Assembly (NCBI GenBank): GCA_017889725.1
Contig: JAGGAE010000003.1
Location: 1-40,244, forward strand
Direction of reading: 5' to 3'
Length of the DNA: 40,244 nt
From: Bacillota bacterium
Lineage (GTDB): Bacteria > Bacillota > Negativicutes > Sporomusales > CTSoil-080
The first letter of the stretch is position 1; every line of letters begins with the position of its first letter. The notes under the pieces were generated by a model. The model saw only the letters and a list, made by a program, of their open reading frames with translations, was not told the origin of the DNA and ran no database searches. Positions 1,018 through 14,539 of this stretch are shown here, one piece after another. The position numbers and the translations under genes are program-made.

Positions 1018-3411
1018 CTATAAAACTTGTAGCGGATCCACATCTATGGAAATATCGCCTTTTTGCCCAATTCCAGTTTGATGGATAGCGTTGGCGGTAG
1101 CCACAATATCCAAAGTTTTTACAAGAATATGCATCCGGTATACCTCACTGATTTTGGCAACTGGCGCAGGAAACGGCCCAATAATTTCTCCCTGGCTATC
1201 AATCCTGTTCAATAACGACGCGGTGTCTTCTGCCAGGCGACGGGCTTTCGCCTCGGAGGTCCCCTGAACCGTAATTTTGATTATCCGGTTATACGGTGGA
1301 TACCCCAGTTCCCGCCTCAATTTTAGTTCGCACTGGTAAAAATCAGCATAGTCATGTTTTGCACCGGCAGTTATAGCATAGTGATCGGCACTATAAGTTT
1401 GAACCACAACGCGCCCGGGTTTATTCCCCCTTCCTGCTCTTCCGGCAGCCTGCGTCAGAAGCGCGAAAGTTTTCTCAGCAGCCCGAAAGTCCGGTAAATT
1501 AAGGGCCGTATCCGCCGAAATAATACCTACGGCAGTGACATTTTGAAAGTCATGCCCTTTGGCAACCATTTGTGTGCCTAGTAATATATCATAATCACCG
1601 ACCGCAAAAGAATGTAAAATACGCTGATGAGCGGTTTTACTGCCGGTAGTATCCTGATCCATACGAACAATGCGAGCACTAGGAAGAATTTGAGCCAGTT
1701 CTTCTTCTACCTTTTGCGTCCCCGTGCCAAAAAAGCGAATATAACGGCTTTGACACGAGGGGCAAACATCCGGGACAGGCTGATGAGACTGGCAGTAATG
1801 ACAGCGAAGTACCGCCCCTGCATGATGATATACTAAAGAGACTGCACAACGATTACAGGTCATAACATGCCCGCACTCACGGCACATGACAAAGGTAGCA
1901 TAGCCGCGGCGGTTAAGTACGATAATGGCTTGCTCACCCCGCGCTATTGTTTCGATCAAGAGATCCCTAAGCGGAGCCGAAATAACACTGCGCCGTCCTG
2001 CTTTTAGTTCTTCCCGCATATCGACAATATTAACTTCGGGCAAAAACGCCCCGTCAATTCGCGTGGAAAGAGAAAGCAGCTCATAGGTTCCGTTTTGCGC
2101 CTGAAAATAGGTTTCCATAGAGGGAGTCGCGCTGCCCAAAATAACGGCTGCTCCAGACAATTCCGCCCGTTTGATGGCCACTTGACGCGCATGGTAATGA
2201 GGTGCTTCTTCCTGTTTATAAGTAAACTCATGTTCTTCGTCCAATATAAAGAGCCCTGGCTCTGCCACGGGGGCAAACACAGCTGAACGTGCGCCGATAG
2301 CAATACCCACTGAACCCGACTGCAACCTTTGCCAAGTGTCAAACCGCTCGCCTACCGACAGCTTACTGTGCAAAACGGCAACATCATCACCAAACCACTC
2401 TTTGAACCGCTCTACAATTTGGCCGGTAAGTGCAATTTCAGGCACCAGCACCACTACTTGCCGCCCGACTTTACGGGCCGCCGCAGCCGCTTCAATATAT
2501 ACCTGTGTTTTTCCACTGCCGGTAACACCATGCAACAAAAAGCATTGATAATAACCACCGTCAATGGCAGGCTTGATTTTATCAAGCACCTGCTGCTGAT
2601 CCTGTGTCAGAGATACTGCATGATTAATCGCAGCAAACTGACTATAACTATCGCGTACCACCCGGCTTTTACCGGAAGCTATTATGCCGCGCCCCGCTAA
2701 CGCTTTTACGACATCACGGCTAATTTTAAGTTGAGCCAGTTCACTTGTTGTAAGCTTCTTTTGATTTTGCAATATCTCAAGCAACCGGCGCTGAGCAGGT
2801 TTTCTCGCTAATTCTTGCTCAAGACTGCTGACCGCTTCCAGATCCGCTACATACCAGTACACCTCATACTGCGCCTGCGCTCTTTTTCGGACTAAAGACT
2901 GGCGTTCTAAATTGCCGTTTGCAATAAGTCGGCGTATCAGCTTCTCAGTATGGCTGCCAAAAACACTAATTAAAGAAGCCGACGTTTGAGGACCTTTCTC
3001 TAAAAGATACTCATAGAGCTGTCGTTCGGATTCTGCACACTCTGGCCCTAATTGATTTTCAGGCAATGATCGGTATAATACTTCGGATTTTATACCCGAC
3101 TTCCCCGGAATAAAAAGACGCATAGCTTCCGCCAGAGTACACAGATAAAATTCACTAATCCATACGGCAACCGCCATCATATGCACAGTAAACCAACATT
3201 CCTCGTCAAGCAGTTCAATAATATGCTTTAGTCCCTCGCCAGAGCCTTCCGTTATACTGGCTACAAATCCTTCGACTCTCCGGCCCCCAAAAGGAACCAA
3301 TACCCGCCAGCCGACATCAACTTCTTCCATTTCCTCCGGAATGAGATACGTAAAGGGTTTGTTTATACTTTTTACTGGTAAATTAATGATAATTTCTGCT
3401 ATACGCTGCAT
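1018..3411 (-). CDS. priA: Primosomal replication restart helicase PriA
   Basis: Superfamily 2 DNA helicase that reloads the replisome at stalled forks. The N-terminal 3'-DNA-binding domain begins QRIAEIIINLPVK. The Walker A motif GVTGSGKTQ lies near residue 296, the DEEH box near 389, and GSATPS follows. The paired zinc-binding cysteines (CRECG, CNRC, CHYC, CPSC) lie roughly between 507 and 555, and QAAGRAGRG is motif VI. I start at ATG 3411 (797 residues) because GGTAGG sits upstream. The longer in-frame TTG at 3453 lies inside a terminator-like hairpin. Its place between coaBC/metK and def-fmt is the standard Firmicute order. All catalytic motifs look intact. Confidence 0.96.
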   Translation of the reverse strand: MQRIAEIIINLPVKSINKPFTYLIPEEMEEVDVGWRVLVPFGGRRVEGFVASITEGSGEGLKHIIELLDEECWFTVHMMAVAVWISEFYLCTLAEAMRLFIPGKSGIKSEVLYRSLPENQLGPECAESERQLYEYLLEKGPQTSASLISVFGSHTEKLIRRLIANGNLERQSLVRKRAQAQYEVYWYVADLEAVSSLEQELARKPAQRRLLEILQNQKKLTTSELAQLKISRDVVKALAGRGIIASGKSRVVRDSYSQFAAINHAVSLTQDQQQVLDKIKPAIDGGYYQCFLLHGVTGSGKTQVYIEAAAAARKVGRQVVVLVPEIALTGQIVERFKEWFGDDVAVLHSKLSVGERFDTWQRLQSGSVGIAIGARSAVFAPVAEPGLFILDEEHEFTYKQEEAPHYHARQVAIKRAELSGAAVILGSATPSMETYFQAQNGTYELLSLSTRIDGAFLPEVNIVDMREELKAGRRSVISAPLRDLLIETIARGEQAIIVLNRRGYATFVMCRECGHVMTCNRCAVSLVYHHAGAVLRCHYCQSHQPVPDVCPSCQSRYIRFFGTGTQKVEEELAQILPSARIVRMDQDTTGSKTAHQRILHSFAVGDYDILLGTQMVAKGHDFQNVTAVGIISADTALNLPDFRAAEKTFALLTQAAGRAGRGNKPGRVVVQTYSADHYAITAGAKHDYADFYQCELKLRRELGYPPYNRIIKITVQGTSEAKARRLAEDTASLLNRIDSQGEIIGPFPAPVAKISEVYRMHILVKTLDIVATANAIHQTGIGQKGDISIDVDPLQVL

Positions 3412-3438
3412 AATGTTATACCTACCGTTATACAAAGA

Positions 3439-3462
3439 AAAGGGACTTAGCAAAGTCCCTTT
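3439..3462 (-). terminator. Hairpin between the 47-aa ORF and priA
   Basis: Perfect 10-bp stem (AAAGGGACTT / AAGTCCCTTT) with a 4-nt loop, followed on the minus strand by TCTTTGTATAA. It could end or attenuate the metK transcript before priA. The U-tract is short, so termination may be partial. Confidence 0.55.
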
Positions 3463-7463: not shown

Positions 7464-7727
7464 CTATTCGGCAGTTTCGTCAATGTCTTTGTTCACCAAC
7501 CGATGAGCAACGGTTTCAGGCTGTACTGCCGACAAAATGACATGATCACTATCGGCAATAATTACAGCACGCGTCCTTCTGCCATAAGTCGCATCAATTA
7601 ACATTCCTCTGTCACGCGCTTCTTGAATAATTCTCTTAATAGGTGCCGATTCAGGACTGACAATCGCAATAATCCTGTTAGCAGAAACAATATTACCAAA
7701 ACCAATATTAATAAGTTTAATATCCAT
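7464..7727 (-). CDS. remA: DUF370/RemA-family regulator
   Basis: An 87-residue protein matching RemA (YlzA), a small DNA-binding regulator that activates extracellular-matrix and osmoprotection genes in B. subtilis. Features are the start [12 protein letters not shown], the SPESAPIKR segment, and the conserved '[17 protein letters not shown]' stretch followed by SDHVILSA. The ATG follows AGGAGGAAGCTACA. Position between yicC and gmk is the conserved Firmicute arrangement. The targets in this organism cannot be told from the window. The family is found in non-biofilm species too, so the matrix role is inferred only from B. subtilis. Confidence 0.92.
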
Positions 7728-8814: not shown

Positions 8815-9408
8815 TCATCTAAATTTATCTAAGGCAAATATAAAATTATGCTTCCGCCGGTCGTTTGTCACAAGATTTAGCACAGCAGTTTTATTCCTAT
8901 TAACCTGATCCTTCATAATATATATGAATAGCTTAGTAGAATAGACGCCGCTCACCGGATGGCTTTTCTCCGGTTCAGGAATCACATACACAAGCAAAGA
9001 AGGGATCGTCTTTGTTCCCTGCCGTATAACCGCTTGTACGCCATCAGCGAAACTTTCGTATTTCCCAAATAAGGTTACTCTGAAAACCAAATACTGCTTA
9101 TAAGGTTCAAGAACTTTTTTCCCTTCTGCAAGACTAACTTCTTTCCCGGCAAGTATTTTATCCCTGGCATCGGACGCTAACAGTAAAAAGGGAGTAAAAA
9201 AACACGCCTGCTCCATATTACTATTTATAACTATTGCCCCTTCTTCATAAACAGTCCAGGGGCGAAAAAAATCGTCTAACATAAGTACTGAATTTTGGCA
9301 TCCATACTCTTGAGCCAAAAAAATAGTGTCTCTAGATACTTCGGCAAAAACTGCCGCTGGCTTGACCCATAGTAACACGAATAGAACTGCCCATAACCAC
9401 TTTCTCAT
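8815..9408 (-). CDS. Secreted protein of unknown function
   Basis: A 197-residue product. It begins MRKWLWAVLFVLLWV with a cleavage site after PAAVFA (about residue 22), so it is a standard Sec signal peptide; there is no lipobox Cys. The mature part has just two cysteines (YGCQN and EQACFF), which could pair outside the membrane, and it ends in a basic segment FALDKFR. I do not recognise the family. I start at ATG 9408, which has AGGAGG seven bases upstream; the alternative six codons earlier has no ribosome site. It is monocistronic, with its own promoter and terminator, and its start region lies within a long inverted repeat. Confidence 0.75.
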   Translation of the reverse strand: MRKWLWAVLFVLLWVKPAAVFAEVSRDTIFLAQEYGCQNSVLMLDDFFRPWTVYEEGAIVINSNMEQACFFTPFLLLASDARDKILAGKEVSLAEGKKVLEPYKQYLVFRVTLFGKYESFADGVQAVIRQGTKTIPSLLVYVIPEPEKSHPVSGVYSTKLFIYIMKDQVNRNKTAVLNLVTNDRRKHNFIFALDKFR

Positions 9409-9445
9409 ATATATACCTCCTAGCAATCTCTAGGAGTATATATAT
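9407..9445 (-). promoter_or_regulatory. Long inverted repeat spanning -10 to start codon
   Basis: The left arm (9407-9423) and right arm (9430-9445) are complementary over 16 bp with one bulged C and a 6-nt loop. The repeat contains the AGGAGG ribosome site and two bases of the ATG in one arm, and the probable -10 in the other. It could be a repressor operator or a 5' mRNA hairpin that hides the ribosome site. Confidence 0.65.
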
Positions 9446-9469
9446 TCAGTCTGCATCGTTTTATGTCAA
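9441..9469 (-). promoter_or_regulatory. Promoter of the orphan secreted-protein gene
   Basis: Perfect -35 TTGACA (9464-9469), then AATATA at a 17-bp spacing (9441-9446); TATATA follows at 19 bp. The -10 merges into the A/T-rich arm of the inverted repeat. Confidence 0.6.
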
Positions 9470-9488
9470 TATATTACATTGATAGAAA

Positions 9489-9521
9489 TAGGGTTACCCA
9501 AAATTCATTTGAGCAACCCTA
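9489..9521 (-). terminator. Terminator of the dapF-dapL transcript
   Basis: Stem of 14 pairs, including G-U pairs, formed by TAGGGTTGCTCAAA and TTTGGGTAACCCTA around a short loop. It is followed on the minus strand by TTTCTATC and starts eight bases after the dapL stop. Confidence 0.75.
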
Positions 9522-9528
9522 CTGATCT

Positions 9529-10764
9529 TTAGAAGCTAAGTTTTGTTTTAATTCTGGCTATAGCCTCTTCTGTGTTTTCCCTGTTTCCGAAGGCCGTAAG
9601 ACGGAAATAGCCTTCGCCGGAAGGACCAAATCCCGATCCGGGAGTTCCCACGATATGGACGTTTGTCAATAGTTTATCGAAAAACTCCCAGGAATCCATA
9701 CCCTTAGGTGTTTTAAGCCAAATATACGGAGCGTTGACTCCCCCATAGGCCTCCAAACCAATGCTCAATAGCCCTTCGCGTATAATTTTTGCATTAGTCA
9801 TATAATAATCTACTACTGCCCGAATTTCGGCCTGACCAGCTTCGGTATAGACTGCTTCTGCGCCACGTTGCACGATATACGGTACACCATTAAATTTGGT
9901 GGTTTGTCGTCTATTCCATAACTTATTTAGGGAATGAGCGGTTCCATCCTTAGTAACTGCCATAACTTTTTTAGGTACTACCGTATAAGCGCAGCGTGTA
10001 CCGGTAAAGCCAGCCAGCTTCGAGAACGACCGAAACTCAATAGCCACTTCGTCTGCCCCTTCGATTTCATATATGCTGTGTGGAATATCATCTTCACAGA
10101 TATATGCTTCATAGGCAGCATCAAATAAAATAACGGAACCATTCTTTTTGGCATAATCAACCCATTTTTTCAATTCACTTTTCGGCAACACTGTGCCCGT
10201 GGGATTATTAGGGCAACACAAATAAATCATATCCACCTTTGTCTCTGGCAGTGCGGGTTTAAAGTCATTTTCTGCTGTGCAGGGTAAATATACAATGCCG
10301 GGGAATTTCCCGTCGGGCCCAAGTTTACCCGATCGGCCTGCCATGACATTAGTGTCAAGGTATACAGGATACACCGGATCGGTAATCGCCACGGTGTTAT
10401 TCGTACCAAATAACTCCTGAATATTACCTACATCACTCTTAGAACCATCGCTAATAAATACTTCGTCTTCCCCAAGAGTTATACCATAAGGAGCATAGTC
10501 ATTTTCAATAACTTTATTAATCAAAAAGTTGTATCCCTGTTCCGGGCCATAACCACGGAAGGTTTCGGCCTTTGCCATTTCATCAACCGCATGATGCATC
10601 GCGTTAATTACAGCAGGAACCAAAGGCTGAGTCACGTCGCCAATTCCCAGACGAATAATATTCGACGCCGGATTCTGCGCCTTATAAGTAGCTACTCGCC
10701 TTGCTATTTCAGCAAAAAGATAACTTCCCTGAAGCTTCAAATAGTTTTCATTAATTAATGCCAT
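9529..10764 (-). CDS. dapL: LL-diaminopimelate aminotransferase
   Basis: PLP enzyme that converts tetrahydrodipicolinate directly to LL-diaminopimelate, bypassing the acylated succinyl/acetyl routes. The 411-residue protein begins [20 protein letters not shown], a DapL signature. It shows NNPTG (186-190), the Asp215 PLP contact and the Schiff-base Lys249 in [15 protein letters not shown] 10764 is chosen because AAAGGAG lies seven bases upstream. It sits 28 bases after dapF, so the two consecutive steps to meso-diaminopimelate are encoded together. No dapC/dapD/dapE is in view. Confidence 0.96.
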
Positions 10765-14413: not shown

Positions 14414-14481
14414 TATGGGCCACCTCGCTCACATGTTCTCGTTACCCATGTTATTCCAGCTAGATGGCAATTAGACCTTAT

Positions 14482-14511
14482 TTGACCAAACCGACCAAGT
14501 AATGGTATACT
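14482..14511 (+). promoter_or_regulatory. Promoter of rqcH
   Basis: TTGACC (-35, 14482-14487), 18-bp spacer, TATACT (-10, 14506-14511). The predicted start of transcription, near 14518, excludes an ATG-like start at 14513 and supports translation from 14540. Confidence 0.75.
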
Positions 14512-14539
14512 TGTGGCAAAAATCGCCCTGGAGGCTTGT

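Follow-up and report, generated by a model that had tools for sequence, protein, structure and literature searches.

The minus-strand gene beginning at position 9408 of the 40,244-nt stretch of DNA analysed here (the window) is preceded by a short conserved inverted repeat that is probably a small built-in brake on the production of an uncharacterised, apparently secreted protein. In the reading that we favour, tentatively and with confidence just short of even, the mRNA of this gene (8815-9408, minus strand; hereafter gene X) starts from its own promoter at the core arm of the repeat and folds into a 5′-terminal hairpin, which occludes the Shine-Dalgarno (SD) sequence and dampens translation. 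The −10 element GAATAT would place the start of the message on or just before CTCCTAG, and the first approx. 20 nt would then fold into the 5′-terminal hairpin CUCCUAG AGAUUR CUAGGRG, in which the anti-SD-like CUCCU pairs with the AGG(A/G)G of the SD sequence. Such pairing would make ribosome binding costly, and translation of the apparently secreted protein would stay low as long as the hairpin is neither opened nor bypassed. The position of the start, formation of the hairpin in the cell and the lowered translation are what we infer here. Sequence, conservation in three species, copy number, predicted folding and the constant spacing between GAAT and ATG were computed directly.

On the minus strand, positions 9447-9406 read GAATATATATA CTCCTAG AGATTG CTAGGAG GTATATATATG, ending in the start codon of gene X. 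The repeat itself is GAATATATATA-CTCCTAG-AGATTG-CTAGGAGGT, and the ATG at 9408 begins 6 nt past its end. The original prediction of 16-bp arms with one bulge and a 6-nt loop was reproduced in coordinates and content by RNAfold, which gave 16 pairs, one bulged G and a 6-nt loop for the minus strand from 9452 to 9391. In this long fold, the 5′ arm spans 9445-9430, the loop 9429-9424 and the 3′ arm 9423-9407, in which 9417 is the bulged base. Embedded in it is a core hairpin composed of the 5′ arm CTCCTAG (9430-9436), the loop AGATTG (9424-9429) and the 3′ arm CTAGGAG (9417-9423); in the longer fold, the outermost C of CTCCTAG pairs one base further, leaving 9417 bulged. The flanking AT-rich arms were delimited by fold and alignment. 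The outer 5′ arm (9437-9445) overlaps the −10 element and the outer 3′ arm (9407-9416) extends into the ATG. The SD sequence AGGAGG, as read from the sequence, occupies 9421-9416 and lies mostly in the 3′ core arm. It shares the long 3′ arm with the A and T of the gene X start codon (9408-9406), both of which are paired, and the proposed enclosure of AGGAGG and part of the ATG in one arm is thus borne out. The folding energy of the repeat was −18.9 kcal/mol as compared to a shuffle mean of −9.2 kcal/mol (z −4.2), and 1 of 200 shuffled sequences folded equally well. Local folding energies were also ranked among start codons called by a simple script, on one contig per genome. No other of the 95 starts on the contig of the window folds with a lower energy than that of gene X, and in the two relatives introduced below, CTSoil_081 and CTSoil_080, the orthologous starts rank first of 42 and second of 155 on one contig of each. 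A repeat search with a 9-base seed and gaps disallowed reported no inverted repeat at this place because the perfect ungapped arms are 7 bp long. A plus-strand terminator listed at 9417-9436 was set aside, the long neighbouring genes all being encoded on the minus strand.

A profile scan of named genomes returned two loci that encode a relative, in two metagenome-assembled genomes (MAGs) of the same family, CTSoil_081 and CTSoil_080. They are the only other members of the genus and family of the window among the 100 genomes searched, and their proteins share 49% and 47% identity with that of gene X. Both relatives keep GAATATAYAT(A)CTCCTAGAGATTACTAGGGGGT. This block is identical across the three species at 29 of 33 columns; upstream of it, in the same alignment, 20 of 101 columns are identical, gap columns counted. 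At four-fold codon sites of 12 shared neighbourhood genes, gene X included, all three genomes agree at 168 of 1110 positions (15%). Thus, the three genomes are strongly diverged and the block is under selection. The best 34-column window contains 29 identical columns here versus 14-33 in 13 other aligned regions. Of the 14 rows compared, two belong to ORFs that lie antisense to other genes, and many of the stretches scored reach into the coding region of the gene upstream. As three of the other regions score above 29 (30, 31 and 33), the conservation shows a functional site, not an exceptional one. Upstream of 3453 on the minus strand, in front of the gene at 1018-3453, 33 of 34 columns are identical across the three species; this stretch holds a GGGACTT...AAGTCCC hairpin followed by T-rich sequence and is probably a conserved terminator. 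The region 14414-14512, flanked by the divergently oriented genes for a P-type ATPase and NFACT, is also well conserved in the three species, with best 34-column windows of 31 and 26.

In the relatives, the outer AT-rich arms do not form a repeat, and conservation is thus limited to a 7-bp stem and its hexaloop instead of extending over all 16 bp. Lack of conservation of the arms had been named as an outcome that would speak against the original prediction: this holds for the outer ATATAT/TATATAT arms, but the loop and the 7-bp arms next to it are conserved. CTCCTAG is identical in all three members of the family. The 3′ arm CTAGGAG reads CTAGGGG in the relatives, and accordingly AGGGGG replaces AGGAGG as SD sequence. 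Six of the seven pairs are invariant. In the seventh, a single side varies, and this sole change, from U-A to U-G, keeps the pair. Compensatory changes in the stem are absent from the three aligned sequences, and the alignment is therefore unable to separate RNA pairing from sequence conservation; a covariation test with three sequences is uninformative. The loop, AGATTG in the window and AGATTA in both relatives, is conserved as much as the stem. Therefore, a factor or a sequence constraint beyond plain pairing likely acts on the element.

Two alternatives bear on this conservation. First, the hairpin might be a platform for an RNA-binding protein or a small RNA that opens or locks it. The identity of five of the six loop positions in addition to the stem goes beyond what folding needs and would fit such a role. 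We nevertheless consider it distinctly unlikely, as no candidate factor was found, the genomes searched contained no second site, and no Rfam family reached the gathering score. Second, selection may act on the promoter, the start region and the SD sequence only, with the hairpin being incidental. Part of the block can be explained by the −10 element and the SD sequence, and elsewhere in the neighbourhood some upstream regions are equally conserved. However, CTCCTAGAGATT between the −10 element and the SD sequence is absent from the inspected upstream regions of other families, and the folding at this start is extreme in each of the three contigs, which makes an incidental hairpin decidedly improbable in our estimation.

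The element was found once per genome. With up to three mismatches allowed, a 21-mer search detected one site per genome in the three species and none in 57 other genomes; the reversed pattern, used as a control, gave one match, in CTSoil_080. Leaving the loop free did not alter this outcome: each of the three genomes again had one site, and the 25 other genomes of the order that were searched had none. A covariance RNA model built from the three sites did not return any additional site in 60 genomes at E 0.1. The genome of the window is 65% complete, and copies may have been missed there. We regard the element as gene-specific, preceding only gene X, because it is present once per genome in the three species and absent from the 25 other genomes of the order. 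A regulon operator or a repeat element was rejected on the same count, the three genomes (that of the window being 65% complete) having no additional copies at other promoters. An exact 18-mer of the element had no match in viral contigs, and Rfam listed no family at gathering score for positions 9300-9600; two sub-threshold matches nearby, to the plastid psbM 3′UTR and to a microRNA family, were taken as chance. CsrA recognises an ANGGA motif, which is absent here, and a CsrA site was set aside. A search of a library of open-access papers retrieved none on the element.

The likeliest alternative is a DNA operator. Here, a dimeric regulator would bind CTCCTAG-N6-CTAGGAG over the start region and control transcription of gene X. 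The window contains a perfect 7-bp dyad located between the −10 element and the start codon, which is a usual position for operators, and sequence-specific binding fits the conserved loop and flank. In addition, a RemA-family gene (7464-7727), a matrix/biofilm regulator according to NCBIfam and Pfam, is located two genes downstream. In the two relatives, however, the dyad is rendered imperfect by an A to G change in one arm, the spacer is asymmetric yet conserved, and a single copy per genome ill suits a regulator with multiple targets. The original prediction had left open whether the repeat is an operator or an mRNA hairpin hiding the ribosome binding site. The hairpin is better supported, if narrowly, because the core was found only before gene X in the genomes of the three species and because the single change in the stem keeps the RNA pair while breaking the DNA dyad. 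The operator is somewhat unlikely in comparison. Findings that argue against the hairpin as a brake include the lack of compensatory changes, the three better-conserved regions, a loop conservation that a purely structural hairpin does not account for, the restriction of the element to three species, the modest promoter scores given below and the smaller cost of opening the SD sequence in a longer message; in addition, transcription starting at A 9431 would leave the SD sequence free in the window.

A hairpin at the 5′ end of the message presupposes a promoter of its own. A terminator-like hairpin with a weak T tract follows dapL (9487-9523, minus strand) and separates it from gene X. Its z score is −6.1 in the window, and hairpins of different sequence at the same place in the relatives reach −5.3 and −6.2. 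The presence of this structure in all three genomes suggests that gene X is most likely transcribed from its own promoter. The putative −10 element GAATAT (9442-9447, minus strand) is of the SigH type, and GAAT is positioned 39 nt ahead of the ATG in each of the three species. The distance from the G of GAAT to the core arm is 11 nt in the window and in CTSoil_080 and 10 nt in CTSoil_081, and the gap between GAATAT and the core arm amounts to five bases in the window and four in CTSoil_081. A perfect TTGACA followed by a probable −10 element within the repeat arm had been proposed earlier. The SigA-like −35 sequence TTGACA does exist at 9469-9464 on the minus strand, but it has no counterpart in the relatives, which carry TGAA and TGGA in this region and a SigH-like GAAT as −10 element. 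A sigma-70 scan did not list a promoter here at its threshold.

The SigH motif of Sporomusa sphaeroides is given in an excerpt of PMC12456013 as AGGA and GAAT with a spacer of 17-18 nt. Compared with the S. sphaeroides promoters in that excerpt, gene X has a GAAT −10 element at a similar distance, and many of its homologues have an AGGA-type −35 element. In contrast to them, AGGA is replaced by TTGA in the window, TGAA in the relative of the same genus and TGGA in the third species. Among 53 upstream regions taken from gene X and its homologues, 28 contain a SigH-type motif that surpassed shuffled sequences at p 0.05 when T was permitted, with a lower weight, in place of the G in GAAT. These 53 were drawn from 60 loci after removal of seven duplicates of the same three places, and they include second copies and phylogenetically clustered homologues. 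In the family itself, the score against shuffles was p 0.50 for the window and 0.16 and 0.09 for the two relatives, none of them below 0.05. A SigH gene above the curated cut-off is present in the genome of the window and in CTSoil_081, and none was found above cut-off in CTSoil_080.

RNA polymerase favours a start 7 bp past the −10 element and on a purine, as stated in an extract of PMC5730371. In S. sphaeroides, 61.1% of the starts are A and 30.4% are G, and leaders of 20-29 nt are the most frequent (PMC12456013, excerpt). Seven bp past GAATAT is position 9435, which is within the 5′ arm of the hairpin. The nearest purines are A 9437, giving a 29-nt leader, and A 9431, giving a 23-nt leader. 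Based on the position of the −10 element, the start rules in the extract of PMC5730371 and the folds, we predict a start zone at 9431-9437 on the minus strand. According to the predicted folds, a start at A 9437 keeps the hairpin and a start at A 9431 loses it. A 9431 is followed by G, a favoured start context under the same rules.

The predicted cost of opening the SD sequence depends on this choice. With the leader only, at 37°C and with the start just before CTCC, it is 9.9 kcal/mol in the window (A at this position), 8.3 kcal/mol in CTSoil_081 (T) and 9.2 kcal/mol in CTSoil_080 (A). A start at 9431 in the window leaves out the 5′ arm, and the SD sequence is free at a cost of 1.1 kcal/mol in the leader alone. 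When 60 nt of the message are included, the cost in the window is 5.5 kcal/mol for the start before CTCC and 1.0 kcal/mol for the start at 9431. The relatives likewise lose the core hairpin without the 5′ arm in the leader alone (1.5 and 1.3 kcal/mol); with 60 nt of message, pairing between the SD sequence and the coding region leaves 6.5 and 4.5 kcal/mol.

The mRNAs of pyrC and pyrD form a 5′-terminal hairpin that pairs with the SD sequence. In E. coli and Salmonella, a start on CTP yields pyrC and pyrD mRNAs with a ribosome-blocking hairpin, according to part of PMC7818426. Similarly, a ribosome-blocking hairpin at gene X would hinge on the first base of the message. Since a start 6 nt later would abolish the hairpin in the window, start choice could act as a switch as it does at pyrC: transcripts beginning at A 9437 or at the CTCC pyrimidines would lock the SD sequence, and those beginning at A 9431 would free translation. 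Which start is used might depend on the sigma factor, with SigH acting at GAAT versus use of the overlapping SigA-like promoter with TTGACA, or on nucleotide pools. Translation of the apparently secreted protein, which occurs mostly in Spo0A-bearing genomes, would thereby be coupled to the growth state. We consider such a switch unlikely. In contrast to pyrC and pyrD, no link of gene X to nucleotide synthesis was found and its promoter is SigH-like. Moreover, unlike at pyrC, both nearest purines are A, and the choice between C and a purine is not directly transferable. In a pyrC-type leader, the 5′ arm begins at the transcription start; for gene X, the 7-bp rule predicts a start at 9435, within the arm. 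Release of the SD sequence by a later start, the other pyrC-type feature, is predicted for the window, where the cost drops from 9.9 to 1.1 kcal/mol, but the relatives retain 6.5 and 4.5 kcal/mol with 60 nt. If it were true, a start-site switch would show that a mechanism described for pyrimidine genes of E. coli also operates at an alternative-sigma promoter, here of a Spo0A-carrying lineage; were the hairpin no more than a fixed brake, it would be an ordinary cis element.

In RNA thermometers such as ROSE and fourU elements, the SD sequence is paired inside a stem of the leader. The SD sequence of gene X is predicted to be paired in a leader stem as well, and this anatomy might allow warming to melt the stem and free the ribosome binding site. 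Unlike in thermometers, the predicted stem of gene X is stable and shows no modelled melting up to 65°C. Between 20 and 65°C and with the 5′ arm present, the modelled mean unpaired probability of the SD sequence is low, lying between 0.11 and 0.18 in the window and not exceeding 0.17 in the relatives, and Rfam has no match above threshold. A thermometer was rejected on this model, in which the SD sequence stays closed up to 65°C as long as the 5′ arm is present, and we regard it as extremely improbable.

The element is compact and gene-specific: approx. 33 bases are strongly selected for in a family that the present analysis covers with three genomes only. It precedes a widespread gene without a name, found mostly beside yicC and mostly in Spo0A-bearing genomes. 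Gene X encodes a 197-aa protein whose N-terminal hydrophobic, signal-like segment, read by eye, is the basis for calling it apparently secreted. Originally taken for an orphan, the gene has homologues in 53 of the 100 genomes covered by a protein search, its own genome included, and most of them reside in the same neighbourhood. At 50 further loci, yicC is close downstream on the same strand in 43; 39 have dapF upstream together with yicC, and six have neither within the 1.5-2 kb covered on each side. The names of the neighbours DapF, LL-diaminopimelate aminotransferase, YicC, RemA and guanylate kinase are supported by Pfam and NCBIfam. Spo0A scored above its curated cut-off in 46 of the 53 genomes with gene X versus 9 of the 47 others, a count that is uncorrected for relatedness and in which the 65%-complete MAG of the window scores as lacking Spo0A.

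The gene X protein has no match in Pfam and no sequence match in the PDB. NCBIfam gave no credible match, the only one being KwaB at E 0.14 for one homologue, far below cut-off. An AlphaFold model from a three-sequence alignment was weak (mean pLDDT 57.5), and its matches in the PDB were given no weight; many of these were Ig-like beta domains, and none had E ≤0.001. The RemA-family regulator gene at 7464-7727 on the minus strand, two genes downstream of gene X, is situated between yicC and the guanylate kinase gene. The unnamed, apparently secreted family is located mostly between dapF or dapL and yicC, and at least five genomes contain two matches to it.
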